Source: Octadecabacter antarcticus 307
GTDB lineage: Bacteria > Pseudomonadota > Alphaproteobacteria > Rhodobacterales > Rhodobacteraceae
NCBI RefSeq assembly: GCF_000155675.2
Contig: NC_020911.1
Span: 3,338,501-3,402,500 of the forward strand
Direction of reading: 5' to 3'
Length of the DNA: 64,000 bases
Positions 1,418 to 57,411 of this stretch are shown in pieces. A program made the position numbers and the translations under genes. Every line of letters begins with the position of its first letter. Position 1 is the stretch's first letter. The notes under the pieces were generated by a model that did not search any database, had not been told where the DNA came from, and saw only the letters and a list, made by a program, of their open reading frames with translations.

Positions 1418-1745
1418 AATCGGCGCGGTCTGTGCTGCCACCATTTTGATAGACCCTCTCATGATTTGCATGCAAATCACTGCCGGGCAGTGGATGACGC
1501 GTCAATCGGGCCAATGGCGAGGAAAATCATTCATTCAGGGCGGCCAGAAAGTAGTGAGGGACGCACTCTATATGCCTGCCCTTGTGGCGATGCGGCACAA
1601 CCCCGATCTCAAGACCAAATACCAAGCCATGATTAAAGCTGGAAAGCCACCAAAAGTCGCCCTTACGACGCTCATGCGAAAGCTCATCGAGCTCGCTAAC
1701 GCCCTCATCAAAGCAAATCGAAATTGGGTGGAAAAGGGGGCTTGA
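1418..1745 (+). pseudogene. IS110-family transposase C-terminal fragment (copy 1)
   Basis: The sequence matches the 3' part of the IS110 copy at 26.1-27.2 kb almost base for base. It covers the IGAVCAATILI segment and then TRQSGQWRGKSFIQGGQKVVRDALYMPALVAMRHNP to NRNWVEKGA. Between these parts lies one palindromic element (1454-1492), whereas the other copy has two elements with about 55 bp of gene between them. The fragment therefore appears to have lost that stretch by recombination between the two elements. It ends at a junction with an IS3 remnant at about 1763, again at a palindromic element. Confidence 0.8.
1454..1492 (+). repeat. IS-nested palindromic element (39 bp), in IS110 copy 1
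   Basis: It has the CCCTCTC 5' end, the stem GATTTGCA/TGCAAATC (8 bp, no loop) and the 3' end CTGCCGGGCAGTG followed by GATG. The left half is identical to the element at 26808-26846. The right flank matches that of the element at 26903-26942, so it is probably a recombinant of the two. Confidence 0.85.
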
Positions 1746-1762
1746 TCAAGACGGATACTTAT

Positions 1763-1803
1763 CCACTGGCCCGGCAGTGCATGTTTACATGCATGAGAGG
1801 GGG
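1763..1803 (-). repeat. IS-nested palindromic element at IS110/IS3 junction
   Basis: On the minus strand it shows the C-run TCTCA, the stem TGCATGT-AA-ACATGCA, and CTGCCGGGCCAGTGG with one extra C. It marks the exact joint between IS110 copy 1 and IS3 copy 1. It occupies the same OrfB site as the element at 18803-18841. Confidence 0.8.
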
Positions 1804-2000
1804 ATACCTTGAAGTCACGTTGGCGGAGGACCTTCTGATAATCGTGAGAACAGTATTGGCTGCCACGATCCGTGTGATGGATGCAGCCTTGAGGCGGAGA
1901 CCGGAACGCTATTGCCATCTCCAGCGCCAGCGCTCTGATCGCCAAGTCCCGCTTCATCCGGTTGCTGTACCACTGATATACCGTTCTGGCGCATCCATTG

Positions 2001-2075
2001 CCCCGTCTCATCGCCGCAAGCGGCGACTGCCGGGCAGCGGGACAGGTAATTGCAAAGCAATCTGCCGAGAGGGGG
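2001..2075. repeat. Composite of two palindromic elements, tail to tail (in IS3 copy 1)
   Basis: A forward unit with the stem TCGCCGC-AA-GCGGCGA is followed at once by a reversed unit with the stem GATTGC/GCAAT. Their 3' ends meet at GCGGGACAGG. The mirror-image composite at 18536-18609 sits at the same site of IS3 copy 2, in the GHxRVGR region of OrfB. Confidence 0.8.
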
Positions 2076-2310
2076 CGGCCCACGCGCCGGTGCCCAATAT
2101 CCAAGCCAATCTCTTTGAGTTCCTCAGTTATGCGCGGCCTGCCATAGCTGTTGAGGCTGAGACGAGATTGTTCTTTGATGTGCGCCAGTGTGACCAGATC
2201 GGACCGCTGTCTGCGGCTGGCAGGACGGCTGCGGAACGGCCGCAAGCCACGAGAACTGACGTTCATGACACGACACATCCGAATGGTGGCGAAACTTTCG
2301 CGGTGTTCTT

Positions 2311-2349
2311 CCCCTCTCATCGATACTGCGTATCGACTGCCGCGCAATG
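2311..2349 (+). repeat. IS-nested palindromic element (in IS3 copy 1)
   Basis: It has CCCCTCTCA, the stem TCGATAC-TGC-GTATCGA, and the 3' end CTGCCGCGCAATG. It joins the OrfA remnant to the start of OrfB, abutting the same OrfB bases as the element at 18258-18299, which has a completely different stem. Confidence 0.8.
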
Positions 2350-2573
2350 GTGTCTCGCGTCGAAGCCGATCATTCTCTTGGGCGAGGCCTAAGTCCTCTT
2401 TCGATACGACATCCCAACACCAAGATCATCCGCAATTTGTTTGCGCTTCAGCCCACGGGTCAGCGCAATGCGTACCGCATCCTTGCCGAATTCGTCCGCT
2501 CTTCTGTGTCCCATAGTTCATCTCCTTTGTTGCAGTAAATGTTATCAAAGGAGCGCCATCAAACCGCGACAGG

Positions 2574-3184
2574 TCAACACAGGATGCCTGGACGGAGACA
2601 AACTTCTGCAGACTTCGCATGCGCCTAAAGCGCAGCATGGCCCGTTCCCGCCTTCGAAATGGCTGGTGTGAATTCTCAGCGCGGTTGTTGAGCCTGCGGC
2701 TAGTTTCCTGCTGGTTGGCGCTGCCAATGACCTTCATCGCAGCGCCATAGGCACGTAGCTTGTCGGTGACAAGAACCTCAACTTTGCCGTGGCGTTTCAT
2801 AGTTTTTCTGAGGAACTTCAATGCTGCTTTACGGTTACGGCGCTTCGTCACATAGCTTTCGAGCACTTCACCCTCATGATCCACGGCCCGCCAAAGATAG
2901 TGCGTCTCACCGTTAATCTTCACGAAAACCTCATCGAGATGCCACTGCCAGTTCGAGTAGGCGCGCATTTGTTTAACGCGCGTCTGGCGTATCCCAGTCG
3001 CGAACAGCGGGCCAAATCTATTCCACCAGAAACGGACTGTTTCGTGGCTAATGTCGATGCCGCGCTCATTCAGTAGGTCCTCCACATTTTGGAGTGAAAG
3101 CGGAAAACGGACATACATCATCACGGCCAAGCGGATGATTTCGGGAGACGTCTTAAAGTAGCGGAAAGGGCTGCGTTTAATCAT
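2574..3184 (-). pseudogene. IS6-family transposase, C-terminally truncated
   Basis: The protein starts MIKRSPFRYFKTSPEIIRLAVMMYVRFPLSLQNVEDLL and carries the IS6/IS26 DDE core: Asp in WHLDEVFVKINGE, Asp in VLVTDKLRAYGAA, and Glu in NNRAENSHQPFRRRERAM. After LQKFVSVQASC the frame runs into the end of IS3 copy 1 (VDLSRFDGAPL), so the last 20-30 residues are lost. The IS6 outer end is probably at 3241, where the minus strand begins GGCACTGTCAGAGG. This IS6 also truncates the beta-oxidation gene at 3314-3559. It contains no palindromic element. Confidence 0.8.
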
Positions 3185-3241
3185 CCCTCTATGCTAAGTC
3201 GCGGCCCTGCCAGCCTCAAGTCAGTTTCCTCTGACAGTGCC
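2576..3241 (-). mobile_element. Truncated IS6-family element
   Basis: It spans the truncated transposase and the surviving terminal repeat (GGCACTGTCAGAGG reading inward from 3241). The opposite end was lost when IS3 copy 1 entered or recombined at about 2575. Confidence 0.65.
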
Positions 3242-3313
3242 CTGTAGAAAACTAATGACGGGTTTTGGGTATTCATAAAGCTTCGTATTCAGCCGATACT
3301 CGTCACGTCAAAA

Positions 3314-3559
3314 CTAACGCCCATAGTCCAGATTACCATTTTGGCCGCTGCGGTACATGTCGGCAATATCACCACCAGAACAAAAGGCCCATATGCCAGC
3401 CGCGTCAATCATCACCAAATCAATGTCTGCGTCGCGCCATTCATCAATTGCGGATTCAATCGCTAACGTCATTTCAGTAGTTAAAGCATTCAGAGCATCG
3501 GGTCGGTTCAGCTTAATGCGCCCCGCGCGCCCTTCGATGCGAATGTCGATATCGCTCAT
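3314..3559 (-). pseudogene. 3-hydroxyisobutyryl-CoA hydrolase / enoyl-CoA hydratase, N-terminal fragment
   Basis: The 81-residue product MSDIDIRIEGRAGRIKLNRPDALNALTTEMTLAIESAIDEW to AFCSGGDIADMYRSGQNGNLDYGR is the N-terminus of a crotonase-fold protein. The FCSGGDIADMY motif forms part of the oxyanion hole and resembles 3-hydroxyisobutyryl-CoA hydrolases (valine degradation), which are normally about 350 residues. The frame stops just before the IS6 junction, so roughly three quarters are missing. The start codon overlaps the stop of the upstream acyl-CoA dehydrogenase (ATGA type), placing it last in the operon. Without the acid-base residues it cannot be active. Confidence 0.8.
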
Positions 3560-4695
3560 TTCGCGATCATCCCGCGACTGACAATCATGCGCATAATCTC
3601 GTTAGTACCTTCAAGAATTTCATGCACGCGCAGATCGCGCACCAACTTTTCTATTCCGTAATCGGCCAGATAGCCGTAGCCGCCATGCAGTTGCAGACAA
3701 TCATTGGCCACGCGGCTGCCCGCCTCGGTCACGAACTTTTTGGCCATGGCACAATGCGCAGCGGCATCGGGCGTACCAGTGTCCAGTTTCCACGCGGCTT
3801 GGTGAAGAAAAACACGCGCGGCCTGCAATTCAATTTCCATGTCCGCCAACCGGAACTGCAACGCTTGAAATTGATCAATGGATTTTCCAAATGCCTTGCG
3901 CTCGGCCATATAAGCCACAGTTTGGGTCAATGCCGCCTGCGCCGCGCCCAGCGAACAGGCCGCGATGTTCAAACGCCCGCCGTTCAGCCCAGCCATCGCA
4001 TATGTAAACCCTTTGCCTTCCTCGCCCACCAGATTGGTCGCAGGAATGTGGCAATCGTCCAATTGCACTTGCCGCGTTGGCTGCGCACGCCAGCCCATTT
4101 TGTCCTCAAGTCCACCAAAAGACAGCCCGTCGGTTTTATCCTCGACGATCACAGTAGAAATGCCTTTGGGCCCGTCATCACCAGTGCGGCACATAACGAT
4201 GTAGGCGCCAGAGTACCCCCCACCCGAAATGAACGCCTTTGTGCCAGTCAGCGCATAACCTTCATTCGTGCGCTCAGCACGGGTTTTGAGGGCCGCAGCG
4301 TCAGACCCGGACCCCGGTTCAGTCAAGCAATAGGACAAGACCATCTCCATGCTGAGGGCACGGGGCAGGAACTGCGCCCGTAGCGCGTCAGAACCGAATT
4401 TATCAATCATTGCCGCGCACATATTGTGGATCGACAAGAACGCCGCAACGGACGGGCAAGACATGCTCAGCGCCTCAAACACCAGCGTTGCATCCAGCCG
4501 TGACAGCCCCGATCCACCGCTTTCTTCGCGCACGTACAACCCGCCAAACCCCAATTCTGCCAGCTTGGGCCACAGGTCTTTCGGGATGTTTTCAGCCTTT
4601 TCCCACGCCTGCGCATTGGGTTTGATATGTTCGTCGCCAAAGGCCTTGGCCATGTCAAAAATCAATGTCTGTTCTTCGCTCAGCGCAAAATCCAT
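3556..4695 (-). CDS. Acyl-CoA dehydrogenase (isobutyryl-CoA dehydrogenase type)
   Basis: This 379-residue FAD flavoprotein oxidises an acyl-CoA to the 2-enoyl-CoA and passes electrons to ETF. It has the normal family length. Visible parts are the N-terminal helical domain (MDFALSEEQTLIFDMAKAF), the middle beta-domain (YCLTEPGSGSDAAALKTRAER, then GTKAFISGGGYSGAYIV), and the C-terminal helical domain (RKAFGKSIDQFQALQFRLADM). LHGGYGYL and the catalytic-base motif VHEILEGTNEIMRMIV are also present. The resemblance is closest to the short/branched-chain isobutyryl-CoA dehydrogenase group, which fits the adjacent 3-hydroxyisobutyryl-CoA hydrolase remnant, but the exact substrate is an inference. 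It lies 3 bp downstream of the SDR gene in the same operon. Confidence 0.9.
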   Translation of the reverse strand: MDFALSEEQTLIFDMAKAFGDEHIKPNAQAWEKAENIPKDLWPKLAELGFGGLYVREESGGSGLSRLDATLVFEALSMSCPSVAAFLSIHNMCAAMIDKFGSDALRAQFLPRALSMEMVLSYCLTEPGSGSDAAALKTRAERTNEGYALTGTKAFISGGGYSGAYIVMCRTGDDGPKGISTVIVEDKTDGLSFGGLEDKMGWRAQPTRQVQLDDCHIPATNLVGEEGKGFTYAMAGLNGGRLNIAACSLGAAQAALTQTVAYMAERKAFGKSIDQFQALQFRLADMEIELQAARVFLHQAAWKLDTGTPDAAAHCAMAKKFVTEAGSRVANDCLQLHGGYGYLADYGIEKLVRDLRVHEILEGTNEIMRMIVSRGMIAK

Positions 4696-4698
4696 GTC

Positions 4699-5460
4699 TT
4701 ACCTCATTGCCAGTCGGGTCGCGCCATCAAGGCGTATGACCGACCCATTTAGGAATGCGTTTTCAATGATATGCAGCGCCAAGGCTGCAAATTCATCTGG
4801 ATCACCAAGGCGTGGTGGAAACGGTATTCCTGCCGCCAGACCATTCTGAATGTCTTGGCTCATGGAGGTCACCATAGGTGTGCCAAATATTCCTGGCGCG
4901 ATGGCCATGACCCGCACACCGCTCCGCGCCAGATCACGCGCCATGGGTAACGTCAGCCCCACGATACCGCCCTTTGACGCCGCATAGGCCACCTGCCCCA
5001 TCTGTCCTTCAAAGGCCGCGATGGATGCCGTGTGAATGATGACGCCGCGTTCTTCACCCACAGGATCTGCGGCCACCATACCCGCCGCACTTTGCGATGC
5101 CACATTAAAACTGCCGACCAGATTGACGTTGATAACCATTTGAAACAGCGCCAAATCATGGGCCTCACCACGCGACACAGTTTTGGCAGCAGGCGCAATC
5201 CCCGCACAATTCACGCAGATGCTTTCCTGGCCGTGCGCACCGCGTGCTTGTGTCAGTGCCGCTGCGACAGATGTAGCATCGATCACATCCGTTTCGTAAA
5301 AATTTGCGCCTATTTCTGCGGCATAGGCCATGCCCTTGTCGGTATCGCGATCGAGTAGCGCCACTTTAACGCCTTTCAGACGCAACGCCGCAGCCACTGC
5401 GGCACCAAGTCCCGATGCGCCGCCAGTGACAACGGCAGCATGATCAGAGCCAAGCTTCAA
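4699..5460 (-). CDS. SDR-family 3-hydroxyacyl-CoA dehydrogenase (type-2 like)
   Basis: This 253-residue short-chain dehydrogenase has the NAD-binding TGGASGLGAAVA motif near residue 12, the VNCAGIA motif, the catalytic Ser in HTASIAAFEGQMG and the YAASKGG motif (Tyr and Lys). The C-terminus IRLDGATRLAMR is typical of HSD17B10/FabG-like 3-hydroxyacyl-CoA dehydrogenases. Within this operon it would oxidise a 3-hydroxyacyl-CoA to the 3-ketoacyl-CoA for the thiolase encoded just upstream. Its start overlaps the thiolase stop by 4 bp, implying translational coupling. The chain-length preference cannot be read from sequence. Confidence 0.85.
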   Translation of the reverse strand: MKLGSDHAAVVTGGASGLGAAVAAALRLKGVKVALLDRDTDKGMAYAAEIGANFYETDVIDATSVAAALTQARGAHGQESICVNCAGIAPAAKTVSRGEAHDLALFQMVINVNLVGSFNVASQSAAGMVAADPVGEERGVIIHTASIAAFEGQMGQVAYAASKGGIVGLTLPMARDLARSGVRVMAIAPGIFGTPMVTSMSQDIQNGLAAGIPFPPRLGDPDEFAALALHIIENAFLNGSVIRLDGATRLAMR

Positions 5461-6632
5461 GGGCGCTCAACTGCGATCGCAGTCCCCTCACCGCCACCAA
5501 TACAAATCGCAGCGATACCACGCTTAAGACCCCGCTTTTCCAGCGCATTCAGCAGGGTCACGATGATCCGTGTTCCCGATGCGCCAATCGGATGACCGAG
5601 CGCACAGGCCCCACCATTTACGTTCATCTTTTCACGCTCAATTCCAAGGTCTTGCATGAAGGCCATCGGTACCACCGCAAAGGCCTCATTGACCTCCCAC
5701 AGATCGACGTCATCGACGCTCCATCCGATACGGGTCAGTAACTTTTGCGTTGCAGGCACCGGTGCTGTTGTGAACCATGCGGGATCTTGCGCATGGCTTG
5801 CATGGCCCACTATGCGGGCCCGCATTGTCAGTCCGCACACCTGAGCGTGCGTCTCACTGGTCAAAACTATCGCCGCCGCCCCGTCTGAAATTGACGATGC
5901 ATTAGCGGCTGTCACAGTACCATCTTTCTTGAAGGCAGGCCGCAACGTAGGGATCTTGTCGGGCCGTGCATTGCCCGGTTGTTCATCAAGCGACACGGTC
6001 ACATCGCCTTTGCGCGACATAACGGTGACGTTGGTGATTTCACCGTCAAACGCACCGGACTTTTGGGCGGCCAATGCGTTTGATAGTGACCCAAGCGCAT
6101 AGGCGTCCTGTGCCTCACGTGTGAACTGATATTGCTCGGCGCAGGCTTCGGCGAATGTGCCCATCAACGCGCCACGCGTGTAAGCGTCTTCAAGCCCGTC
6201 GAGAAACATGTGGTCCTTCATTTCGACATGACCCAACCGCGCACCATCGCGTGTCTTCAACGACAAATACGGCGCACCCGACATGCTTTCCATGCCACCC
6301 GCGATCATCAAGTCTTGGCTACCAGCAATGATCTGGTCATGCGCCGCCATCACTGTTTTCATGCCCGATCCGCAGACCTTGTTTACCGTGCTGCACGGAA
6401 CCGATTGCGGCAATCCAGCGCCCAATGCGGCCTGACGTGCGGGCGCTTGGCCCAATCCTGCGGGCAAAACACAGCCCATCAAGACCTCGTCGACGCCGCC
6501 CGGCGACACGTCTCCATTTTCCAGCGCACCACGAATGGCTGCTGCCCCAAGATCGGTTGCCGTGACGGTGGACAATGCACCTTGAAATCCGCCCATCGGG
6601 GTGCGGGCTGCACCAACAATCACAACCGACAT
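5457..6632 (-). CDS. Acetyl-CoA acetyltransferase / 3-ketoacyl-CoA thiolase
   Basis: This 391-residue thiolase is full length. The nucleophile Cys lies in VNKVCGSGMKTVM (around residue 88), the His in GGACALGHPIGASG, and the second Cys in AAICIGGGEGTAIAVE. The substrate-loop and dimer regions (LMIAGGMESMSGAPY) are present. It cleaves a 3-ketoacyl-CoA to acetyl-CoA plus a shortened acyl-CoA, or condenses two acetyl-CoA. Its place between a CoA-ligase gene and an SDR/acyl-CoA dehydrogenase pair argues for a degradative role. It overlaps both neighbours by a few bases. Confidence 0.9.
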   Translation of the reverse strand: MSVVIVGAARTPMGGFQGALSTVTATDLGAAAIRGALENGDVSPGGVDEVLMGCVLPAGLGQAPARQAALGAGLPQSVPCSTVNKVCGSGMKTVMAAHDQIIAGSQDLMIAGGMESMSGAPYLSLKTRDGARLGHVEMKDHMFLDGLEDAYTRGALMGTFAEACAEQYQFTREAQDAYALGSLSNALAAQKSGAFDGEITNVTVMSRKGDVTVSLDEQPGNARPDKIPTLRPAFKKDGTVTAANASSISDGAAAIVLTSETHAQVCGLTMRARIVGHASHAQDPAWFTTAPVPATQKLLTRIGWSVDDVDLWEVNEAFAVVPMAFMQDLGIEREKMNVNGGACALGHPIGASGTRIIVTLLNALEKRGLKRGIAAICIGGGEGTAIAVERP

Positions 6633-8721: not shown

Positions 8722-8732
8722 TCCGAATTACA

Positions 8733-18021: not shown

Positions 18022-18183
18022 GGACCTGTCGCGGTTTGATGGCGCTCCTTTGATAACATTTACTGCAACAAAGGAGATGAACTATGGGACTGAAACGAAC
18101 GGACGAATTCCGTAAGGATGCGGTGCGCATTGCACTGACCAGCGGGCTTACACGCAAGCAAGTGGCAGATGATCTTGCCATAA

Positions 18184-18222
18184 TTGCCCAGCAAGCGATT
18201 ACAAAGCAATCTGCCGAAAGGG
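18184..18222 (-). repeat. IS-nested palindromic element in OrfA (IS3 copy 2)
   Basis: Minus-strand form: C-run TTTCGGCA, stem GATTGC-TTT-GTAATC (one G-T pair), 3' end CTTGCTGGGCAA. Relative to the expected DDLGVGMSTLNKW it adds a net 39 bp in frame (QQAITKQSAERG). The matching site in copy 1 is empty. Confidence 0.8.
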
Positions 18223-18257: not shown

Positions 18258-18299
18258 CCCACTGCCCGGCAGTCGTTTGCCAGCAAACGATGAGAGGGG
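18258..18299 (-). repeat. IS-nested palindromic element at OrfA/OrfB deletion joint (IS3 copy 2)
   Basis: Stem TCGTTTGC-TG-GCAAACGA, 3' end CTGCCGGGCAGTG next to GATG. It abuts the same OrfB bases (AAGAACACCGCG) as the element at 2311-2349 of copy 1, but with a different stem and a different left deletion point. Read with the gene it brings a TGA stop. Confidence 0.8.
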
Positions 18300-18535: not shown

Positions 18536-18609
18536 CCCCCTCTCGGCAGATTGCTTTGCAATCACCTGTCCCGCTGCCCGGCAGTCGCCGCTTGCGGCGA
18601 TGAGAGGGG
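18536..18609. repeat. Composite of two palindromic elements, tail to tail (IS3 copy 2)
   Basis: A forward unit (GGCAGATTGC-TTT-GCAATC) and a reversed unit (TCGCCGC/GCGGCGA) meet at CCTGTCCCGCTGCCCGG. It lies between OrfB segments GHQRVGR and MRQNGI, the same place as 2001-2075. Confidence 0.8.
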
Positions 18610-18802
18610 CAGTGGATGCGCCAGAACGGTATATCAGTGGTACAGCAACCGGATGAAGCGGGACTTGGCGATCAGAGCGCTGGGGATGGCAATAGCGTTC
18701 CGGTCACCGCCTCAAGGCTGCATCCATCACACGGATCGTGGCAGCCAATAATGTTCTCACGATTATCAGAAGGTCTTGCGCCAACATGACTTCAAGGTAT
18801 CC

Positions 18803-18841
18803 CCCTCTCATGCATGTAAACATGCACTGCCGGGGCAGTGC
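18803..18841 (+). repeat. IS-nested palindromic element in OrfB (IS3 copy 2)
   Basis: CCCTCTCA, stem TGCATGT-AA-ACATGCA, CTGCCGGGGCAGTGC with one extra G. It adds 13 codons in frame (PSHACKHALPGQC) between FKVS and MSGKG. The downstream flank is ATGAGC. Confidence 0.85.
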
Positions 18842-18899: not shown

Positions 18900-18938
18900 C
18901 TCCTCTCGGTGAATATGAATATTCACCTGCCGGGCAAC
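18900..18938 (+). repeat. IS-nested palindromic element in OrfB (IS3 copy 2)
   Basis: CTCCTCTC, stem GGTGAATAT-GA-ATATTCACC, CTGCCGGGCAACG. Relative to the family sequence KT-I-KAELIW it adds 13 codons (TPLGEYEYSPAGQR replaces one residue), so the frame is preserved. Confidence 0.8.
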
Positions 18939-19130
18939 GCAAGGCGGAACTGATCTGGCGGGACACATGGGAAACCCGCAGGCGTGCCAAAATGGCGATC
19001 TTTGGATACATTAATGGCTTCAATAATCCACGACGGCGGCACTCCGCATTAGGCTGGAAAAGCCCTGTCGCATTCGAACGGAAAGTGGCCTAAATGGGCA
19101 TCTGGGGCGGCACGAAAGCGCGACAGGTCC

Positions 19131-19771: not shown

Positions 19772-19814
19772 CCTTGCTCAGCAGGCGATTGCAAAGCAAT
19801 CTGCTGAGAGGGGG
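19772..19814 (-). repeat. IS-nested palindromic element in IS5 copy A
   Basis: Minus strand: CCCCCTCTCAGCA, stem GATTGC-TTT-GCAATC, CTGCTGAGCAA. Net insertion is about 41 bp after the SSSI codons; IS5 copies B and D are empty here. Confidence 0.8.
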
Positions 19815-19911: not shown

Positions 19912-19949
19912 CTTTGCCCGACAACACATGCTTGCATGTGTGAGAGGAG
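19912..19949 (-). repeat. IS-nested palindromic element in IS5 copy A
   Basis: Minus strand: CTCCTCTC, stem ACACATGC-AA-GCATGTGT, TTGTCGGGCAAAG. Net 37 bp in the RKHGGPKRR codons. IS5 copies B and D are empty at this site. It shares its stem with elements in IS110 (26903) and IS256 (39319). Confidence 0.85.
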
Positions 19950-20002: not shown

Positions 20003-20041
20003 CAATGCCCGTCAGGGGTTTGCTTGCAAACCATGGGAGGG
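20003..20041 (-). repeat. IS-nested palindromic element in IS5 copy A
   Basis: Minus strand: CCCTCCCAT, stem GGTTTGC-AA-GCAAACC, CCTGACGGGCATTG. Exactly 39 bp between ATC and GACAGC of the LLIDSTG codons, without target duplication. The same site is filled in copy D (56824-56862) and empty in copy B. Confidence 0.85.
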
Positions 20042-20104: not shown

Positions 20105-20144
20105 CCCCTCTCATGGAAACTGTGTTTCGACTGCCGGGCAGTCG
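20105..20144 (+). repeat. IS-nested palindromic element in IS5 copy A
   Basis: CCCCTCTCAT, stem GAAAC-TGT-GTTTC, CTGCCGGGCAGTCG. Net 37 bp after the CRR codons. The same site is filled in IS5 copy D (56722-56760) and empty in copy B. Confidence 0.85.
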
Positions 20145-24718: not shown

Positions 24719-24759
24719 CCCTCTCGTGACATCGCTTTGCGATTCACTGCCGGGCAATG
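24719..24759 (+). repeat. IS-nested palindromic element at IS481/IS110 junction
   Basis: CCCTCTC, stem GTGA-C-ATCGC-TTT-GCGAT-TCAC, CTGCCGGGCAATG followed by AATGG. It joins the IS481 remnant to the 5' part of IS110 copy 2 (continuing after the IS3 insertion at 26150). Confidence 0.8.
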
Positions 24760-24810: not shown

Positions 24811-25756
<946 letters not shown>

Positions 25757-25760
<4 letters not shown>

Positions 25761-26107
25761 TTGCGAAACGGGCGGTCGAGCTCCGCCTGTGCAAAATACG
25801 CCGACGCCTTACGCAAAATCTCATTGGCTTGACGCAGTTCGCGGTTCTCACGCTCAAGTTCCTTGATCCGCGCCTTCTCAGCGCTGGTAGGCTCTGGCCG
25901 TTCGCCGCCATCGCGCTGGACCTGACGGGCCCAAACGCGAAGGCTGTCCGGTGAACAACCCAATTTACCCGCGATCGCCGTCAGCGCCGCAGCTTCGCTC
26001 TGATATTCATCGCGGTGTTCCATAAGCAGCCGAACCGCACGCTCGCGGAACTCAGGTGAATACGGCTTCGAGGTCTTCTTCTTTTGTGTCTGTTCCATAA
26101 CGGGCAA
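25757..26107 (-). CDS. IS3-family transposase OrfA
   Basis: This 116-residue HTH/leucine-zipper protein reads SKPYSPEFRERAVRLLMEHRDEYQSEAAALTAIAGKLGCSPDSLRVWARQVQRD, then [41 protein letters not shown]. The first half is the DNA-binding domain; the second, with Leu heptads, mediates OrfA/OrfAB dimerisation. It is intact, but its OrfB partner is broken by a palindromic element, so the element is probably not autonomous. Confidence 0.85.
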
Positions 26108-26397: not shown

Positions 26398-26434
26398 CCT
26401 TCTCAGCGATGTAAACATCGCCTGCCAGGCAATG
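26398..26434 (+). repeat. IS-nested palindromic element (37 bp) in IS110 copy 2
   Basis: CCTTCTCA, stem GCGATG-TAAA-CATCGC, CTGCCAGGCAATG followed by GATGCC. It precisely separates KTDAV from DAKMLAVMG. The 37-bp length shifts the frame. Confidence 0.85.
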
Positions 26435-26730: not shown

Positions 26731-26767
26731 CCCCTCTCATGCATGCGAGCATGCACTGCCGGGCAAC
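26731..26767 (+). repeat. IS-nested palindromic element in IS110 copy 2
   Basis: C-run TCTCA, stem TGCATG-CGAG-CATGCA, CTGCCGGGCAACG. It interrupts the LRSIPGIGAV motif. Confidence 0.85.
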
Positions 26768-26807
26768 GGGACATCGGCGCGGTCTGTGCTGCCACCATTT
26801 TGATAGA

Positions 26808-26846
26808 CCCTCTCATGATTTGCATGCAAATCACTGCCGGGCAGTG
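26808..26846 (+). repeat. IS-nested palindromic element (39 bp) in IS110 copy 2
   Basis: CCCTCTCAT, stem GATTTGCA/TGCAAATC, CTGCCGGGCAGTG followed by GATGCC. It sits between ILIE and MPEI codons and adds 39 bp. Identical to 1454-1492 in copy 1. Confidence 0.85.
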
Positions 26847-33695: not shown

Positions 33696-34667
33696 TCAGC
33701 CTACAGTAACGGTGTTTGGGATGCCAAGGGCGGTGAAGCCGTTGAGTATCGCGGCACGGATTTGGACTTCCGCAACTTGCCGGTCAAAGTCTCGTGCGGC
33801 CAGGCGCTGCCCGAGTAGTTTCAAACAATGCATCTTTGTCTCAACACGACTCCTGCGGTGGTATCCGCTCAAGCGACGCCATTGAGCGCGGCCGAGATCC
33901 TTTGAGGACTGTACCGCTTCGTTTCGGGCTCTGGCCCCCAGCGTATCCGGCTTCCATAGCTTGGCATTCTTGCGTGGCGGGATGACAGCACGGGCATTGC
34001 GGGCCGCAATCGCATCATGGCATTTGCGGGTGTCATATGCCCCATCTGCTGTGACACTGCCAATCTTCTGATCTGGTGTGATCTGACCGAGAAGGTTGGG
34101 CAACATGGGTGGGTCTCCAATGCTGCTACTCGTCACTTCGACCGCGCGTATCTCCAACGTTTCTTCATCAATCCCTATATGTATCTTGCGCCACACCCGA
34201 CGTTTCGGCCCGCCATGCTTGCGAGCGTTCCACTCACCTTCGCCCTCAACTTTGATGCCGGTACTGTCGATAAGGAGGTTTAGCGGGCCCTTTGAGCCCT
34301 GATACGGGATGGTAACCGATAGCCTTTTCTGACGCCGACATAACGTGCTGAAGTCTGGGACCTCCCAGTCAAGGTCGATCAATTTCAACAGGCTTTCCAC
34401 AAAGCCCGTCGCCTGCCTCAAAGGCATTCCGAACAGCACTTTCAACGTGAGACAGGCTTGGATCGCCGCATCGCTATAGCGTGGCTGGCGGCCCCGTTTG
34501 CCCCCCTCTCATGGTTTGCAAACAAACCACTGCCGGGCAACGGTAGGCGCAGCTTTCCAAGTGACCTCTGGGTTAAACCAAATGGTCAGTGACCCGCGTC
34601 GCTTCAGGGCCTTGTTATACTCAGGCCAGTTCCTCGTGCGGTAAATCGGGGCGATAGGTTTACTCAT
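33696..34667 (-). pseudogene. IS5-family transposase (copy B) interrupted by one in-frame palindromic element
   Basis: The product starts MSKPIAPIYRTRNWPEYNKALKRRGSLTIWFNPEVTWKAAPT, then 13 inserted codons (VARQWFVCKP, stop, EG), then GKRGRQPRYSDAAIQACLTLKVLFGMPLRQATGFVESLL to LGIPNTVTVG. The DDE core is complete: Asp in LLIDSTGIKVEGEGEW, Asp in VTADGAYDTRKCH, Glu in HRRSRVETKMHCLKLLG. The insert is exactly 39 bp and in frame but brings a TGA, so the only visible lesion is the palindromic element itself. The region after the insert could still be translated from an internal start. Confidence 0.85.
34503..34541 (+). repeat. IS-nested palindromic element (39 bp) in IS5 copy B
   Basis: CCCCTCTCA, stem TGGTTTG-CAAA-CAAACCA, CTGCCGGGCAAC. 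It lies between the APT and GKRGR codons; IS5 copies A and C are empty at this site. Net 39 bp. Confidence 0.88.
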
Positions 34668-38719: not shown

Positions 38720-38795
38720 CCCCCTCTCGGTCATGCAAAGCATGGCCTGTCGGCAACGGGACAGGCGATTGTGAAACAATCTGCCGAGAAGGGGG
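38720..38795. repeat. Composite of two palindromic elements, tail to tail (IS256)
   Basis: The forward unit has CATGC-AA-AGCATG; the reversed unit has GATTGT-GAA-ACAATC. They meet at CGGCAACGGGACAGG. The net addition is 77 bp (about 38 + 39) between EVMT and IGKVSVQV codons, replacing one codon. Confidence 0.8.
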
Positions 38796-38945: not shown

Positions 38946-38985
38946 CACTGCCCGGCAGGCGATGCTTGCATCGCCGAGAGGGGGC
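38946..38985 (-). repeat. IS-nested palindromic element in IS256
   Basis: Minus strand: CCCCCTCTCG, stem GCGATGC-AA-GCATCGC, CTGCCGGGCAGTG. Net 37 bp between LYLK and ISTGDF codons. Confidence 0.85.
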
Positions 38986-39123: not shown

Positions 39124-39162
39124 TGTTGCCCGGCAGTGCATGCGTCGCATGCATGAGAGGGG
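39124..39162 (-). repeat. IS-nested palindromic element (39 bp) in IS256
   Basis: Minus strand: CCCCTCTCA, stem TGCATGC-GAC-GCATGCA, CTGCCGGGCAACA. Net 39 bp between DLT and GKRYAY. In frame but adds a TGA when read with the gene. Confidence 0.85.
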
Positions 39163-39318: not shown

Positions 39319-39358
39319 CCCCTCTCACACATGCAAGCATGTGTTGCCGCTCAACGGG
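39319..39358 (+). repeat. IS-nested palindromic element in IS256
   Basis: CCCCTCTC, stem ACACATGC-AA-GCATGTGT, TGCCGCTCAACGG. Net 37 bp in the NADSWRDLL codons. Same stem type as elements in IS5 (19912) and IS110 (26903). Confidence 0.85.
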
Positions 39359-39423: not shown

Positions 39424-39465
39424 CTCCTCACGTGACATTGTTGCACAATGCACTGCCGGGCAATG
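39424..39465 (+). repeat. IS-nested palindromic element in IS256
   Basis: CTCCTCAC, stem CATTGT-TGC-ACAATG, CTGCCGGGCAATG followed by GATGGTGCC. It lies before the DGALGFWTAL codons; net length about 44 bp, one of the longer members. Confidence 0.75.
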
Positions 39466-39614: not shown

Positions 39615-39651
39615 CCCTCTCAGGCATGCAAGCATGCCCTGCCGGGTCATA
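39615..39651 (+). repeat. IS-nested palindromic element (37 bp) in IS256
   Basis: CCCTCTCA, stem GGCATGC-AA-GCATGCC, CTGCCGGGTCATA followed by GATGGCC. It splits the W codon before MA in QDIWMA, with no target duplication. Confidence 0.85.
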
Positions 39652-51696: not shown

Positions 51697-51735
51697 AACT
51701 GCCCGGCAGTCGATGCTAAGCATCGAAGAGAGGGG
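51697..51735 (-). repeat. IS-nested palindromic element in the 51.6-51.9 kb IS3 fragment
   Basis: Plus strand reads ACTGCCCGGCAGT, stem CGATGC-TAA-GCATCG, then AGAGAGGGG. Minus-strand 3' flank is TAATGAATGG. It interrupts OrfB near the NRTVR region. Confidence 0.8.
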
Positions 51736-51994
51736 CGAACCGTCCGATTGTATCGCTCGGTATAGGCATTCTGTTGGGGTTTCCTGGCTGGATGTAGCAT
51801 AGGGTGATGTGATGCTTTGATGCCCATTCCTGCAGCTTTGAACTGACGTATTCAGGGCCATAACACCTTCGGAATATCGCTAATTTAAGGCTATGACTGC
51901 CTGCGCAGCCCCAAATAACGCAGCAGGTGGTCATAGCCGTGCCTCAGGTCCCTACGGTGGTTTTGTACAAACCACACCGCAAAGGAGACCAACT

Positions 51995-53236
51995 ATGACC
52001 GATATCATTATTACACAAACTGCGCCCGTTTTGGTGGCCATCGATATCTCGAAGGCCCGCGACGAAGGTCTCATTGCTATTGCGGACAAGAAGCGCCGCC
52101 GTCGTTTGACTGTTCTGAACCAGCTAGACGACTTCAATCGTCTAATCACATCGCTTGCCTGCTACGGCCGCCCTGTCCGTGTAGCTTTTGAAGCAACGGG
52201 TAATTATCACCGTGCCTTGGCTTATCATCTTGCCGCAGCAGGTTTTGAGTTGAAGTTGGTGTCATCTGTGGCCCTGGCCAGAACGCGAGAGGCCTTGCAC
52301 AACAGTTGGGACAAAAACGACCCTAAGGATGCCCAGGTCATTCTTCACATGATGGAGATCGGGAACGAGCAGTTTTATCATGCCCCCCTCGTGCGTGGCA
52401 CTAACGACATCCAAGAGCTTTCCAAAACGCATGACATCGTATCCAAGTCGAAGACCGAGTTGTGGCACCGAGTTTTAACCCATTATCTGCCGCTGTATTT
52501 TCCTGAAGCTGATCGTTTCCATCGCAGTTCTCGCAGTTCTCGCAGTGACTGGTTCTTTGCTTTCCTTGAACGTTATCCGTCACCACACTTGATCTCAGCC
52601 ATGAGCAAGGAGGCATTCATCGCTGACGCTTGGGATGTGGTGGGCCTCAAGGTTGCAAAAGAGCGTTTACTTTCAGATATCTACGAGACTGCCAAAGTAT
52701 CAGTCGGACTGCCGGTTGCCGCAGATTCCGACGCGATAAGCATGTTCCGCTTGGTTCTCGGGGAAGGCCGCAGTCTTATCGCGCAACGCAATCAAATTGA
52801 AGATCGCGCCGTCGCGCTTCTCAAGGACCTACCAGATTATAAGCTACTGACATCGATACCTGGAATCGGTCCCATCAATGCTTTGACAATTTTGGCAGAA
52901 GCTGGGGATGTACGGCGCTTTCGTCATCACCGGCAGTTTTTGAAGTTCTGTGGAATGGACCTTGCGACTATGCAATCAGGTACATTCAGAGGGCAAACCA
53001 AACTGTCAAAATATGGCAATGCTCGGCTTCGTCGAACGCTTTGGATGGCTGGACAGGTTGCTATTCTGCAGCGCACCAACAGCTTCCGCGACAAGTTCGA
53101 GCGCTACATCGCCAAAGACCGTCACAACACCCATTTGCGCCGAAAGGCGTACACCGCAATCGCAGCGAAGATGGCCCGAACCGTTCATGGGATCATCAAG
53201 CACGGCGAACCATATCGCCCCTTCTTTGAGGGGTGA
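51995..53236 (+). CDS. IS110-family transposase (intact)
   Basis: The 413-residue product starts at MTDIIITQTAPVLVAIDISKARDEGLIAIADKKRR (ATG 51995 with AAGGAGA upstream). DEDD catalytic residues: Asp in VAIDISK, Glu in VAFEATGNYHRALAYH, Asp pair in NDPKDAQVILHMME. The C-terminal domain is SIPGIGPINALTILAEAGDVRRFRHHRQFLKFCGMDLATMQSGTFRGQTKLSKYGNARLRRTLW with the conserved Ser. It lacks any palindromic insert. It belongs to a different subgroup from the IS110 copies at 1.4 and 26 kb. Confidence 0.9.
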   Translation: MTDIIITQTAPVLVAIDISKARDEGLIAIADKKRRRRLTVLNQLDDFNRLITSLACYGRPVRVAFEATGNYHRALAYHLAAAGFELKLVSSVALARTREALHNSWDKNDPKDAQVILHMMEIGNEQFYHAPLVRGTNDIQELSKTHDIVSKSKTELWHRVLTHYLPLYFPEADRFHRSSRSSRSDWFFAFLERYPSPHLISAMSKEAFIADAWDVVGLKVAKERLLSDIYETAKVSVGLPVAADSDAISMFRLVLGEGRSLIAQRNQIEDRAVALLKDLPDYKLLTSIPGIGPINALTILAEAGDVRRFRHHRQFLKFCGMDLATMQSGTFRGQTKLSKYGNARLRRTLWMAGQVAILQRTNSFRDKFERYIAKDRHNTHLRRKAYTAIAAKMARTVHGIIKHGEPYRPFFEG

Positions 53237-53479
53237 TCGACAGCAGTAGGACCTTTCTCTGTAAGGGCCGTGGAGGCAGACAACTGACCTCGTAGATAAT
53301 GTTTAGGCCTTCTGCTCAACGACCCAAAGATCTCGTCTTAAGGACGGTGAGAGCCGCAAAAGCGTACTCTGTGTTTGTTATGGGAGAGACAGTTCGTTGA
53401 CCAAAATGCCAAACTGAGCAATGCTTCTAACGTGTCGAGACGCCTCGATGCGACAATAACCTGACGCCAATTCAGCTAA
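53237..53479. other. Downstream non-coding part of the intact IS110 and junction DNA
   Basis: About 240 bp after the transposase without a credible gene. In the IS110 family one flank encodes the structured bridge RNA; whether that RNA lies here or in the upstream flank (51896-51994) cannot be decided by eye. Confidence 0.35.
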
Positions 53480-53680
53480 TCATTCCGCGCATAGGACGTT
53501 ATCCACGCGTATCATCGCGGGCTTTCCGCGCCATTGGATGACTTGATTAAGGCTGCGCACAACCCGTGCTGCTGGCAGTGAGAAGCCCACGTCAATGGCC
53601 AAGCCTTCGCGATTGAAGTCGTCTATGATGTTCAATGTCCTGAACGATTTCCCGTTCCACAACTGGTCTACCATAAAGTT

Positions 53681-53719
53681 CCTTTCTGCAGATTGCTTCG
53701 CAATCGCCTATCGGGCGAG
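53681..53719 (+). repeat. IS-nested palindromic element (IS3 remnant 53.5-54.5 kb)
   Basis: CCTTTCTGCA, stem GATTGC-TTC-GCAATC, CTATCGGGCGAGG. It interrupts OrfB between VWSM and the DQLWNGKSF segment. A diverged member. Confidence 0.7.
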
Positions 53720-53885
53720 GCATAGACCACACTTGGTTTGGTCGATCTGGCACTGACAACGGATCGGGGCGCTCACGCTTAAGCCGTTTGCGGGGCTTGA
53801 TCCGCAGGTTCAGCTCCAGCTCACAATAAATCCGGCGGACCCGTTTATGGTTCCATTTGAACCCTTTCACATTGCGCAGATACAA

Positions 53886-53925
53886 CCTCTCGGGACATTG
53901 CTTCGCAATACCCTGTCGGTCGATG
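53886..53925 (+). repeat. IS-nested palindromic element (GGGACATTGC type) in OrfB
   Basis: CCTCTC, stem GGG-AC-ATTGC-TTC-GCAAT-A-CCC, CTGTCGGTCGATG. Same stem type as elements in IS256 and IS5. Confidence 0.75.
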
Positions 53926-54051
53926 GGTAACACAATCCAAAGCCCCAGTTCTTACGGGCCTTGGTCAAAGCAATCAGCCAATCTTCAATCTCTTCATTTT
54001 CGTTAGCCAACAGCGGCACATACCGAAAGCACCGCTGGCAGATCGCGAATG

Positions 54052-54089
54052 CCCCCTCTCAGGCATGTAAACATGCCCTGCCGGGCAGC
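54052..54089 (+). repeat. IS-nested palindromic element (IS3 remnant)
   Basis: CCCCCTCTCA, stem GGCATGT-AA-ACATGCC, CTGCCGGGCAGCG followed by GGCATGCC. Confidence 0.8.
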
Positions 54090-54155
54090 GGGCATGCCAG
54101 TGCAATGCTGACACCGCGCACAGCGACTGCTTGTTGGGCCATCTCTCGTCAGAAA

Positions 54156-54195
54156 CCCTCTCGGGATCATGCTACCCATAACCCTGCAGGGCAAT
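54156..54195 (+). repeat. Degenerate IS-nested palindromic element
   Basis: CCCTCTCGGGATCATGC, then ACCCATAACCCTGCAGGGCAATG. The ends fit the family but the central stem is eroded, suggesting an older copy. Confidence 0.6.
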
Positions 54196-54327
54196 GGACG
54201 GCCTCATTCCATTTTTGCCAGCGCTTCCATAAACCAGCGCATTTTGCATGCTCACATCCGCATACATACGTTTCAAACGCGCATTCTCTGCCTACAATTG
54301 TTTCATCGCAGAAATGAGTGACGCGTC

Positions 54328-54366
54328 CCTCTCGGCAGATTGCTACGCAATCGCCTGCCGGCAATG
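54328..54366 (+). repeat. IS-nested palindromic element (39 bp) in OrfA
   Basis: CCTCTCGGCA, stem GATTGC-TAC-GCAATC, CTGCCGGCAATG followed by CATGCC. Net 39 bp in OrfA between YGGM and DASL, in frame but with a TAG formed by the loop. Confidence 0.8.
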
Positions 54367-54572
54367 CATGCCCCCATACTTTGAACGCCACTGATAAAAC
54401 GCGGCACTGCTCATTCCGTGGATACGCCACAGCTCAGAAACCGAAACACCACTCTCAGCTTCTTTCAAAACTGAGACAATCCACGTCTCTGAATAACGTG
54501 ATTTCTTCATCGTGAATCTCCTTGGCTTATCTTGCCGCAAAAATTCTTGTTTTCAACACAACCATTTTTAGG

Positions 54573-54719
54573 GGGGGACCCCGTAAACCCTGTTTCGGTT
54601 GAATGCTACTGCGCCCTGACCAATAACAAGAACCGCGGCCTGAAGCCGAACGTGGGTGGCGATGAAACAACAGTGTCGGATGCGATAAGGATGGTCTCCG
54701 CGTCAGTCACTGACAACTG
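54573..54719 (+). pseudogene. PhoX-family (DUF839) phosphatase fragment
   Basis: The frame NPVSVECYCALTNNKNRGLKPNVGGDETTVSDA contains the PhoX-type signature 'YCALTNNxNRGLKPNxGGDE' and then loses similarity. Only about 30 residues of a protein of 500 or more remain, flanked by IS3 and IS5 sequence. PhoX enzymes are periplasmic Ca/Fe phosphatases. A small remnant, but the motif is distinctive. Confidence 0.55.
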
Positions 54720-55121
54720 ATATACGGAAAAGTGACCATTGGTCTTGATCATGCCAATAGGCTTTGTTGCACAAATCAGTTGAGGGGATTCATGTTGTGA
54801 GTCCATAGTGGTAGCATGTCGTTCATGAGCAGCTGGACCCCTACGACTTACAAGACCAAGAACTGGTCAGATTATAACGACGCCCCGAAGCGCCGGGGAT
54901 CATTGACGCTATGGTTTGATTCTGGTCTGATCCGGTCTGGGAGGCTAAATCTTCTGGTAAGCGTGGGCGGCAGCAAGCCTACAGCGATGCGGCCATACAA
55001 ACCTGCCTGACCATCAAAGTGCTGTTCGGGATGCCGTTGAGGCAAACTGTACGTCGTCAGGGTTTTTGGCACCAAAGGCGGCTTAAATTAAGAGAGCGTT
55101 CGGCTCATCTGGTTGGTGTCA

Positions 55122-56142
55122 TTATGTGGCGTGCAGGCTGTGATGCAAGCGGCGCGCTTCGAGTGTCTTTCGTTTGATCCTTTCCCTTTGTTGTAGAATG
55201 GCTTTGTCACGGCCGAAGTAGACGTCAGACGGCGTGACGTTGTTCAGACTCTCGTGGAAGCGCTGGTGGTTGTAGTGATCGACGAATGCTTCAATTTGGG
55301 CTTCAAGATCACCTGGCAGGAAGTAGTTTTCCAAGAGGATGCGGTTCTTCAAGGTTTGATGCCATCGCTCGATCTTGCCCTGTGTTTGCGGATGATATGG
55401 CGCGCCGCGAGAATGCTTCATGCCTTTCCCTTGCAACCACTCAGCCAGGTCACCGGATACGTAACTGGATCCGTTGTCGCTCAGCAGCCGTGGTTTGTGA
55501 ACGACGTGAACCTGATCACAGCCGGACGCCTTAAGGGCCAAGTCGAGCGTGTCAGTCACGTCCTCAGCCCGCATATTGGTGCAGAGTTTCCACCCTCTCG
55601 GGACATTGCTGCGCAATACCCTGCCGGGCAGCGGAGATGATGTAACGGCTGTAATCGTCTAGGATCGTACTGAGATAGAACCAGCCCCATCCCAGAACCT
55701 TGAGATAGGTGAAGTCAGTTTGCCAAAGCTGGTTGATCGCTGTGGTTTTGTCTTTGAACGCACTGGCGGCTTTCATGACGATGAAGGCTGGGCTGGTGAT
55801 CAGGTCATGCGCCTTCAGCATACGGTATACGGAAGCCTCTGATACGAAGTAGCTTTCCTTATCTGTGAAGGTCACTGCCAGTTCACGCGGTGACAGTTCT
55901 GTCTCTTCCAGCGCAAGGTCCACAACCCGACGTCGCACCTCGTCAGGAATACGGTTCCAGACGTGCTTTGGCTTGGGAGATTGGTCTTGCAAGCCAGCCT
56001 CACCACGCTGCCAATACCGATCATACCAACGGTAGAATGTGGTGCGTGGAATGCCGAGCTTGGCCAAAGTCAGGCGGGCCGGCAGATGCGACCCCTCGAC
56101 CAGCTTGATGATCTCCAGCTTCTCTGATGCGGGATACCTCAT
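55122..56142 (-). pseudogene. IS3-family transposase OrfB interrupted by a 40-bp palindromic element
   Basis: Part one reads MRYPASEKLEIIKLVEGSHLPARLTLAKLGIPRTTFYRWYDRYWQRGEAGL to LWQTDFTYLKVLGWGWFYLSTILDDYSRYIIS. Part two, in a shifted frame, is WKLCTNMRAEDVTDTLDLALKASGC to GKIERWHQTLKNRILLENYFLPG. The DDE residues are present (QTDFTYL, LLSDNGSSYVS, GKIERWHQTL). The only lesion visible is the insert at 55593-55632, placed exactly between TCC and TGG codons. Being 40 bp it shifts the frame by one. Confidence 0.85.
55593..55632 (+). repeat. IS-nested palindromic element (40 bp, GGGACATTGC type)
   Basis: CCCTCTC, stem GGG-AC-ATTGC-TGC-GCAAT-A-CCC, CTGCCGGGCAGC. The sole lesion in OrfB of the nested IS3; no target duplication. 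Confidence 0.88.
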
Positions 56143-56553
56143 TCGTGGTCGCCCCCACCGTCGAACATGCTTTTTTTGAGCAAGCGGAGTTCAAGTGTTT
56201 GCTCCGCAACGACTTCCTTCAGATCACGTGCTTCACGGCGCAGATCCTTCACCTCGTCGGTTGTGGCGGCGCGGGCGGTATCGCCCGTAAGGCGCTTCTT
56301 ACCGGCCTCCATAAAGTCCTTGGACCATTTGTAGTAGATGCCTTGGGAGATGCCTTCACCCCTCTCGTGCATGTAAACATGCACTGCCGGGCAGTGGACC
56401 ACACAGCTCGGCAATGCTGTCTTCCCCACGCAGACCGGCTAAGACGATCCTAATCTTCTCTTCAGATGAATAATGCTTGCGGGTCGCCCGTTTGATATCT
56501 TTGACGATCTTCTCGCCCGGGCTTTTGCGTGTTCCAGTTGTCTGTCTCATGTC
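56139..56553 (-). pseudogene. IS3-family transposase OrfA interrupted by a palindromic element
   Basis: The start MRQTTGTRKSPGEKIVKDIKRATRKHYSSEEKIRIVLAGLRGEDSIAELC is followed by the element (56359-56396) and then EGISQGIYYKWSKDFMEAGKKRLTGDTARAATTDEVKDLRREARDLKEVVAEQTLELRLLKKSMFDGGGDHE. The HTH and leucine-zipper parts are otherwise intact, so the element again is the main lesion. Confidence 0.82.
56359..56396 (+). repeat. IS-nested palindromic element in OrfA of the nested IS3
   Basis: CCCCTCTC, stem GTGCATGT-AA-ACATGCAC, CTGCCGGGCAGTG. Net about 37 bp in the ELCRREGIS region. Confidence 0.85.
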
Positions 56554-56721
56554 CCACTCCTCTGTGGTTACGATGAGCCAACAACACTCTCTTATCAAAT
56601 ATGCCTATTTGGACCCAGAAGCGCTGACGTCAGACAGTGCAAACCACTGGGTTTGTGGAAAGTCTGTTGGAACTGGTTGGCTTGGACTGGAGAGTTCCAG
56701 ATTTCAGCGCTTTGTGTCGGC

Positions 56722-56760
56722 CACGGCCCGGCAGTCGAAACGCAGTTTCAATGAGAGGGG
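56722..56760 (-). repeat. IS-nested palindromic element in IS5 copy D
   Basis: Minus strand: CCCCTCTCAT, stem GAAAC-TGC-GTTTC, CTGCCGGGCCGTG. Net 37 bp after the CRR codons. Same site as 20105-20144 in copy A; empty in copy B. Confidence 0.85.
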
Positions 56761-56823
56761 CAAAGGACGTTGTCCGTTGTTATTCCACACCAAGGATCGG
56801 CGGGGCCGCCGCACCTCTTGATC

Positions 56824-56862
56824 CCTTCTCATGGTTGGTAAGCAAACCACTGCCGGGCAGTG
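56824..56862 (+). repeat. IS-nested palindromic element (39 bp) in IS5 copy D
   Basis: CCTTCTCAT, imperfect stem GGTTGG-TAA-GCAAACC, CTGCCGGGCAGTG. Exactly 39 bp between ATC and GACAGC. Same site as 20003-20041 in copy A; empty in copy B. Confidence 0.88.
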
Positions 56863-56954
56863 GACAGCACTGGCATCAAAGCTGAGGGCGAAGGCGAGTG
56901 GAACGCACGCAAGCATGGTAGCCCAAAGCGCCGCGTCTGGCGCAAGATACATAT

Positions 56955-56993
56955 TCATTGCCCGGCAGGCAAATAGGACATTCGCTGAGAGGG
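56955..56993 (-). repeat. IS-nested palindromic element in IS5 copy D (absent from A and B)
   Basis: Minus strand: CCCTCTCA, stem GCGAAT-GTCCT-ATTTGC (contains a G-T pair), CTGCCGGGCAATG. It interrupts the KIHIGIDE codons; copies A and B are intact here. Net 37 bp. Confidence 0.85.
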
Positions 56994-57120
56994 GGATAGA
57001 CGAAAAACACTGGAAATACGCGCAGTCGAAGTGACCAGAAACGGCGTTGGTGATGCACCCATTCTACCCGATCTCCTTGATCAGATCCCGCCGGGTGAGA
57101 AGATTGGCAGCGTCACAGCG

Positions 57121-57157
57121 CCCTCTCATGCATGTAAACATGCGCCGTCAGGCAGTG
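57121..57157 (+). repeat. IS-nested palindromic element (37 bp) in IS5 copy D (absent from A and B)
   Basis: CCCTCTCA, stem GCATGT-AA-ACATGC, GCCGTCAGGCAGTG followed by GATGGGG. Precise 37-bp insertion between GCG and GATGGG of the VTADGAYD codons, no target duplication. Confidence 0.9.
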
Positions 57158-57369
57158 GATGGGGCATACGATACGCGCAAATGCCACGACGCGATTGCTT
57201 CCCGCAATGCTCATGCTGTGATCCCGCCGCGCAAAAATGCTAAGTTGTGGAAGTCCGACACTCCAGGGGCACAAGCGCGAAACGAAGCGGTCCGATCTTC
57301 AAAATATCTGGGCCGCGCATTGTGGCGGCAACTGACTGGGTACCACCGTCGAAGCCGCGCTGAAACGAA

Positions 57370-57411
57370 CCCTCTCGGGACATTGCTGCGCAAATACCCT
57401 GCCGGGCAGTG
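57370..57411 (+). repeat. IS-nested palindromic element (42 bp, GGGACATTGC type) in IS5 copy D
   Basis: CCCTCTC, stem GGG-AC-ATTGC-TGC-GCAAAT-A-CCC, CTGCCGGGCAGTG followed by AATGCATTG. Precise 42-bp insertion in the VETKMHC codons; copy B is empty. Confidence 0.9.

Follow-up and report, generated by a model that had tools for sequence, protein, structure and literature searches.

The stretch of DNA analysed here (the window) comprises 64,000 nucleotides of the genome of the sea-ice bacterium Octadecabacter antarcticus 307, bases 3338501-3402500 of a 4,812,600-bp contig in a two-contig genome, and it carries a family of short hairpin units. Each unit consists of a run of C followed by TCTC, an R, a hairpin of variable sequence and then CTGCCGGGCARYG, the fixed ends being CCTCTC and CTGCCGGGCARYG. 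Counted from CCTCTC the units measure 36-42 bp, and more with the C-run included (36-44 bp overall), and they are present in both orientations.

With one mismatch at most, the right end matches the window 29 times, a few of these being the near-palindromic end read from the opposite strand, compared with a mean of 0.78 and a maximum of 3 in 100 shuffles. The exact two-ended pattern followed by a G is found 9 times, and 0 times in 100 shuffles. An automatic caller returned 35 calls in the window, of which a few were spurious, and missed some degenerate units; after correction by eye the tally stands at 35 units (about ten with degenerate ends), two outer units split by nested units and one composite (Table 1). 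An earlier reading of this DNA, made from the sequence only, had counted about 40 loci and 43 units; the number of loci is upheld, whereas our recount gives 38-39 units.

Hairpin structure

Selecting sites by their exact ends alone, and deduplicating rows by their 12-14-base flanks, gave 306 distinct sites with 238 different inner sequences. Five or more stem pairs form in 286 of the 306, compared with 110/306 after letter shuffling. The two pairs just inside the outermost one (outer pairs 1 and 2) are of the Watson-Crick type in 89% and 90% of sites, compared with shuffled means of 44% and 42% and a shuffled maximum of 51%; since related units are not independent, these pairing figures are not probabilities. 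The pair types at the two positions vary between GC, TA, CG and AT. The stems differ, yet they pair with themselves, and the proposal of the sequence-only reading that structure rather than sequence is conserved is thus borne out.

In four units (L173, L290, L114:6522 and L238:417) CTGCCG is gone and a copy of the unit's own left end has taken its place, so that the palindrome now reaches the GGG common to both ends. Such a right-end change is what template switching at a hairpin would be expected to leave. If one arm is recopied from the other by template switching, a change would be carried across without selection and the arms would stay complementary; a requirement for the hairpin in mobilisation could also keep them paired. 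The units show strong stem covariation in DNA that has no known RNA role, and marks of template switching in some copies, so that they could serve as a natural experiment on whether selection maintains the pairing or copying errors at hairpins do. Rearranged units also occur, in which the right end is an altered palindrome (TTGCCGGCAACG, CTGCCGGGGCAGTG) or the hairpin is missing (L116:1410-1520, L118:6042, L143:632 and window 18804-18840).

Table 1. Hairpin units of the window, with positions counted from its first base (IS, insertion sequence; ORF, open reading frame)
Feature	Position	Strand	Remarks
Hairpin unit, stem TGATTTGC/GCAAATCA	1455..1492	+	IS110-like context by eye; unit and left flank identical to the unit at 26809
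Hairpin unit, slightly altered right end CTGCCGGGCCAGTGG	1765..1800	-	
Outer unit split by nested unit (unit inside unit)	1996..2072	-	IS3 type
Nested inner unit, left end CGTCTC	2004..2039	+	
Hairpin unit	2313..2349	+	in IS3
Degenerate unit	18182..18221	-	
Hairpin unit	18260..18297	-	in IS3
Outer unit split by nested unit	18539..18614	+	
Nested inner unit	18572..18607	-	
Unit, altered palindromic right end CTGCCGGGGCAGTG	18804..18840	+	
Hairpin unit	18902..18939	+	in IS3
Unit, degenerate right end	19772..19811	-	
Unit, degenerate right end	19912..19947	-	
Unit, degenerate ends	20003..20040	-	
Hairpin unit	20107..20143	+	
Hairpin unit	24720..24759	+	in truncated IS481 copy; identical unit in 8 full genomic copies
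Hairpin unit	25366..25407	-	
Hairpin unit	26399..26434	+	
Hairpin unit	26733..26768	+	
Hairpin unit	26809..26846	+	IS110-like context by eye only
Hairpin unit	34505..34542	+	
Degenerate composite of nested units	38720..38795	.	
Hairpin unit	38946..38981	-	in IS256
Hairpin unit	39124..39160	-	in IS256
Unit, degenerate right end	39321..39356	+	
Hairpin unit, left end CCTCAC	39426..39465	+	in IS256
Unit, degenerate right end	39616..39651	+	
Hairpin unit	51697..51733	-	adjoining ORF: weak rve match, E 0.0013, below cut-off
Unit, degenerate right end	53886..53925	+	
Hairpin unit	54055..54090	+	51200-57800 matches IS110 and other ISs
Unit, partly degenerate stem	54157..54196	+	
Hairpin unit	55594..55633	+	
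Hairpin unit	56361..56396	+	
Hairpin unit	56722..56758	-	
Hairpin unit, left end CTTCTC	56825..56862	+	
Hairpin unit	56956..56992	-	
Unit, degenerate right end	57122..57157	+	
Hairpin unit	57371..57411	+	

Insertion sites and genomic distribution

The units were compared with homologues of the same insertion sequences (ISs) that carry none. An IS3-type element of 1386 bp with four units (G013) is colinear with three unit-free homologues of 1231 bp, from Phaeobacter, Pseudosulfitobacter and Rhodobacteraceae SC52, and shows no gaps besides its units, which measure 38, 40, 38 and 38 bp and alternate in orientation. In the source genome, an IS481-type element carries two units (net 40 and 41 bp) that are absent from a unit-free relative on the genome's own plasmid. 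An IS3 with nine units (eight called, and one degenerate unit recognised from the alignment) was compared with a unit-free Falsihalocynthiibacter homologue of 1263 bp; besides the units, they differ by one in-frame 9-bp deletion and at the tips. No target duplication was found at the insertion sites compared in these three elements. Since full-length homologues of the same ISs exist precisely without them, the units are insertions and not canonical parts of the ISs, the latter being the alternative that the sequence-only reading had left standing.

The junction after CARYG is sharp, while the C-run on the opposite side ranges from 2 to 9, with 0 in a few mutated ends. On the host side of the sharp junction the sequence reads G-W-Y-V, based on 108 sites of the source genome (a few of them spurious), 161 from other genomes and 35 unit-free reference sites. 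Over the 108 and 161 sites the right flank has G in 71-75%, A in 61-64%, Y in 79-84% and G in 53-63%. Units with more than one mismatch in the left end or more than two in the right were excluded from the 161 sites of other genomes, whose rows were likewise deduplicated by flank, as from the mapping onto reference ISs and the counts of IS bias given below. Hairpins as the target, an idea prompted by the palindromic look of the first hot spots, were considered and rejected: the 35 reference sites show no excess of stem at the insertion point (mean 2.17 vs 2.36 at GWY sites, P = 0.91). A scan for flank complementarity gave weak signals only, with a z of 2.9 for the largest offset.

We were able to map 225 of 521 unit calls (duplicates included) onto 12 reference ISs, and found single sites holding different hairpins, six each at IS3 site 353 and IS5 site 482. 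A quick tree was built from 35 IS3 rows, of which 5 carry a unit at site 353; well-supported branches force all of the 5 changes that this site requires, and site 593 requires 4. One hairpin sequence was found at 8 flank-distinct sites. Sister copies of the nine-unit IS3 have two unrelated hairpins at one site between identical flanks, and a related copy is without another unit; the pattern in such near copies means repeated insertion, or recombination and loss.

The preference of the units for ISs was counted in a 425-kb sample of the source genome. Matches to 23 transposase-type queries cover 20% of this DNA, and 106 of the 163 unit calls lie at most 200 bp from them (1.24 vs 0.17 units per kb). 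Of the other 57 calls, 39 go back to transposases of IS3, IS110, IS1182 or other types, either directly or because they copy a place so traced, which brings the IS-supported total to 145/163; the rest are 4 with a weak integrase-core match only, 6 that are IS110-like by eye only, and 8 untraced. In other genomes (37 rows listed), the ORF beside the unit is a transposase in 16 of the 23 tested, one of the 16 being just below the cut-off. IS21 was named for G302 by eye only.

Confinement to ISs, as claimed from the sequence only, therefore nearly holds, but it is slightly too strong in view of a viral cytosine methyltransferase gene. A real hairpin unit was found in 11 of 20 pattern stretches on viral contigs, the rest looking like chance, and seven ORFs were tested among the viral rows with units. 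In three viral contigs, units with three different hairpins occupy the same site of a gene whose sequence reads like that of a C5 methyltransferase; this label comes from motifs recognised by eye, and distant phage matches bear the same name. One contig has the unit in frame, with the gene open for 479 codons (L039:8380-9816), in another it is in frame with net +36 bases compared with a unit-free gene on a Shinella plasmid (L052), and in the third it breaks the frame (L049). A unit first assigned to a phage portal gene was rejected as a further exception, as by eye it lies in an adjoining IS5-like remnant.

The genome of O. antarcticus 307 as a whole holds 287 exact right ends, compared with 1 match in the reversed control, and 255 exact two-ended matches. 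Of 394 genomes of the family, 111 have one such match or more, the source genome among them, with zero in the reversed control in the rows listed. A scan of one genome per species gave at least 120 matching stretches; among the 80 listed, 71 are by title from Rhodobacterales or unspecified Alphaproteobacteria, and 73 passed the hairpin test, at least three of them (L304, L317 and L375) probably by chance. The nine with other titles mostly have poor stems or none. The exception is Vreelandella neptunia HM116, a relative of Halomonas, with three good units on two loci (L310:4179-4216 and L374), for which transfer and contamination are both possible. An apparent replication-strand bias, with + matches only beyond 1.05 Mb, turned out to be an artefact of the match list; stretches read whole carry both orientations.

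Loaded insertion sequences and the origin of the units

ISs that carry two to nine units are multicopy, and their transposase genes are otherwise almost undamaged. All six full copies of the G013 element carry four units, none being free of them; in the source genome the two-unit IS481 is present in eight full copies and the nine-unit IS3 in four, the latter at 98-100% identity. Read in the frame of the unit-free homologue, the compared copies have no premature stops, and their ratio of nonsynonymous to synonymous substitution rates (dN/dS) is 0.05-0.09, close to the 0.04 of unit-free controls (for the nine-unit IS3, 0.06 and no stop), a ratio that, against distant homologues, mostly gauges the time before the units arrived. 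A dN/dS comparison of G013 with Pseudorhodobacter was dropped because a 1-base indel shifts the frame.

Changes common to several copies must have passed through copying, and these were counted as nonsynonymous (N) or synonymous (S). G013 has 8 N:0 S; changes downstream of the stop (5), ahead of the start (2) and within units (3) are omitted, and 4 of these 8 N changes are common only to L082 and L083. IS481 has 8 N:6 S, including a stop common to three copies, after positions 904 and 1099 were reassigned from N to S by codon reading (the script gave 10N:4S), and a 1-bp frameshift is common to two of its copies. The two copy groups of the nine-unit IS3 differ by 2 N:4 S (script total 6N:4S); one further N is common to L285 and the partial copy L289 and, if counted, gives 3N:4S. 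Pooled, the shared changes amount to 18 N:10 S, that is 18/28 vs 77% N expected (P = 0.09). The inherited changes among loaded copies look nearly neutral, and because of this, together with the shared stop and the shared frameshift, the loaded ISs read as dead and their units not as introns or bypass elements. We take most of the loaded ISs to be dead and to have been moved in trans, with the nine-unit IS3 as a possible exception.

That case bears on another reading, in which the units are removable: excised from DNA, processed out of RNA or bypassed by ribosomes, in the manner of an intron, an internal eliminated sequence (IES) or a byp element, so that in some ISs the interrupted transposase gene would still be used. 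The four full copies of the nine-unit IS3 speak for it, with their otherwise near-intact gene, dN/dS of 0.06 and 2 N:4 S between copy groups, as do the six G013 copies without any unit-free full copy, and if it were true, a single bacterial IS gene could harbour as many as nine tiny inserts that are removed. We regard it as unlikely, however, as units occur in both orientations (on + at 9 IS3 sites and on - at 10) and, judged by eye, occupy codon phases 0, 1 and 2. None of the six net lengths measured in ISs (38, 40, 38, 38, 40 and 41) is a multiple of three, the inherited changes in G013 are all nonsynonymous, and IS481 copies multiplied despite a stop or frameshift; the low dN/dS, moreover, mostly reflects time before the units.

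A family resembling repetitive extragenic palindromic (REP) elements, moved by a resident Y1 transposase of the IS200/RAYT type, would account for a tagged hairpin without target duplication and with a short target motif beside one end, and the genome has 24 Y1 matches. This seems rather unlikely to us, since 16 of the 20 unit-bearing genomes tested have no Y1 match, the hairpin ends of IS200-type elements are unlike the units, no GTAG or CGTC tag is present and the units lie within IS genes. A defence that silences ISs by writing hairpins into them, with the host or a hyper-parasite profiting from the loss of transposases, appears quite improbable: near confinement to several IS families, reused sites and frame-breaking lengths in the measured ISs would suit it, but no associated gene was found in the two families tested (Y1 transposases and reverse transcriptases), tolerance and hitch-hiking can also yield an IS bias, and one viral unit is in frame and leaves its methyltransferase open. 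That no mobile element is involved, the hairpins being scars left as decaying ISs underwent break repair or replication slippage, is highly improbable. Changes of the template-switch kind are indeed present in units, but the same two fixed ends recur in 111/394 family genomes, identical hairpins lie at different sites, every insertion checked is exact and there is a target motif.

In our view the units probably constitute a family of miniature hairpin insertion elements of Rhodobacterales, non-autonomous and parasitic on ISs. An enzyme acting in trans would recognise the fixed ends together with the structure of the hairpin, with single-stranded DNA as the probable substrate. The units would ride on ISs and inactivate them, the ISs still spreading in trans via intact relatives, and by hitch-hiking in this way the units could pass between species. 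No autonomous relative with the same ends was recognised by eye among the orphan ends (25 right, 42 left).

Several observations weigh against such a family. No mobilising enzyme was found among the Y1 transposases and reverse transcriptases checked: the former are present in 4/20 unit-bearing vs 1/20 unit-free genomes and the latter in 8/20 vs 4/20, and neither tracks the units. The IS200-type elements of the source genome have hairpin ends of their own (eight were read, L191-L198), and these are unlike the unit ends. No de novo movement of a unit was seen. The outermost pair, which involves the fixed C, is Watson-Crick in only 68% of the sites, with A-C common there. Hot spots could also be old insertions with many precise losses, and in the nine-unit IS3 the sharing and absence of units between L289 and L285-L288 fits no simple tree, which means recombination or precise loss. 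The N changes of this IS are also fewer than neutral drift predicts (P = 0.03).

If the proposal is right, the units form a second layer of parasitism, being elements of about 40 bp that live on ISs, break them and travel between species with them, and they point to a mobilising enzyme. They may also explain part of the 'frameshifted' transposases in genomes of marine Rhodobacterales.

Comparison with known systems

Rickettsia palindromic elements are palindromic inserts of 100-150 bp inside protein genes. One viral methyltransferase likewise carries a unit in frame with the gene open; the units differ in being about 40 bp long, in having only their ends conserved and in breaking the frame in the measured ISs. 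The double-hairpin and byp elements of fungal mitochondria are mobile hairpins whose stems vary while the structure is kept. The units instead lie in both orientations and all codon phases, and there is no sign of continued selection on the unit-bearing genes in two of three ISs tested. The sequence-only reading had likened the units to mitochondrial bypass elements; this is not supported, given these orientations and phases, the non-triplet lengths and the shared stop and frameshift. Miniature inverted-repeat transposable elements (MITEs) are short, non-autonomous and spread by the enzymes of other elements; the units differ from them by asymmetric ends, the lack of target duplication and a free inner sequence, and no IS was found with the same ends.

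None of the Rfam families matches the units at the gathering score, in agreement with the earlier suggestion that they belong to no named class. In the window, only tRNA and an ALIL pseudoknot (RF01497, 107.9 bits) were matched; the latter, a frameshift signal of IS3, lies at 25686-25802 on the - strand, near the unit at 25366.

Searches of an open-access library found no description of the units; papers beyond it may hold one. The words palindrom and repeat are absent from the available part of a paper on Octadecabacter genomes and their many ISs (PMC3646047), as are Rhodobacter, Octadecabacter and Roseo from that of a paper on tagged REPs (PMC3733652). As described there, REP elements are palindromic sequences of 20-40 bp with a short tag at one end and a high copy number (PMC3733652). 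The units are likewise short, palindromic, tagged and high-copy. A cognate Y1/RAYT transposase would be expected for REP elements, whereas any Y1 match is present in only 4/20 of the unit-bearing genomes tested. The units also lack the GTAG/CGTC tag, have both ends fixed (CCTCTC and CTGCCGGGCARYG) and a free stem sequence and, while REP elements are extragenic, lie inside transposase genes.

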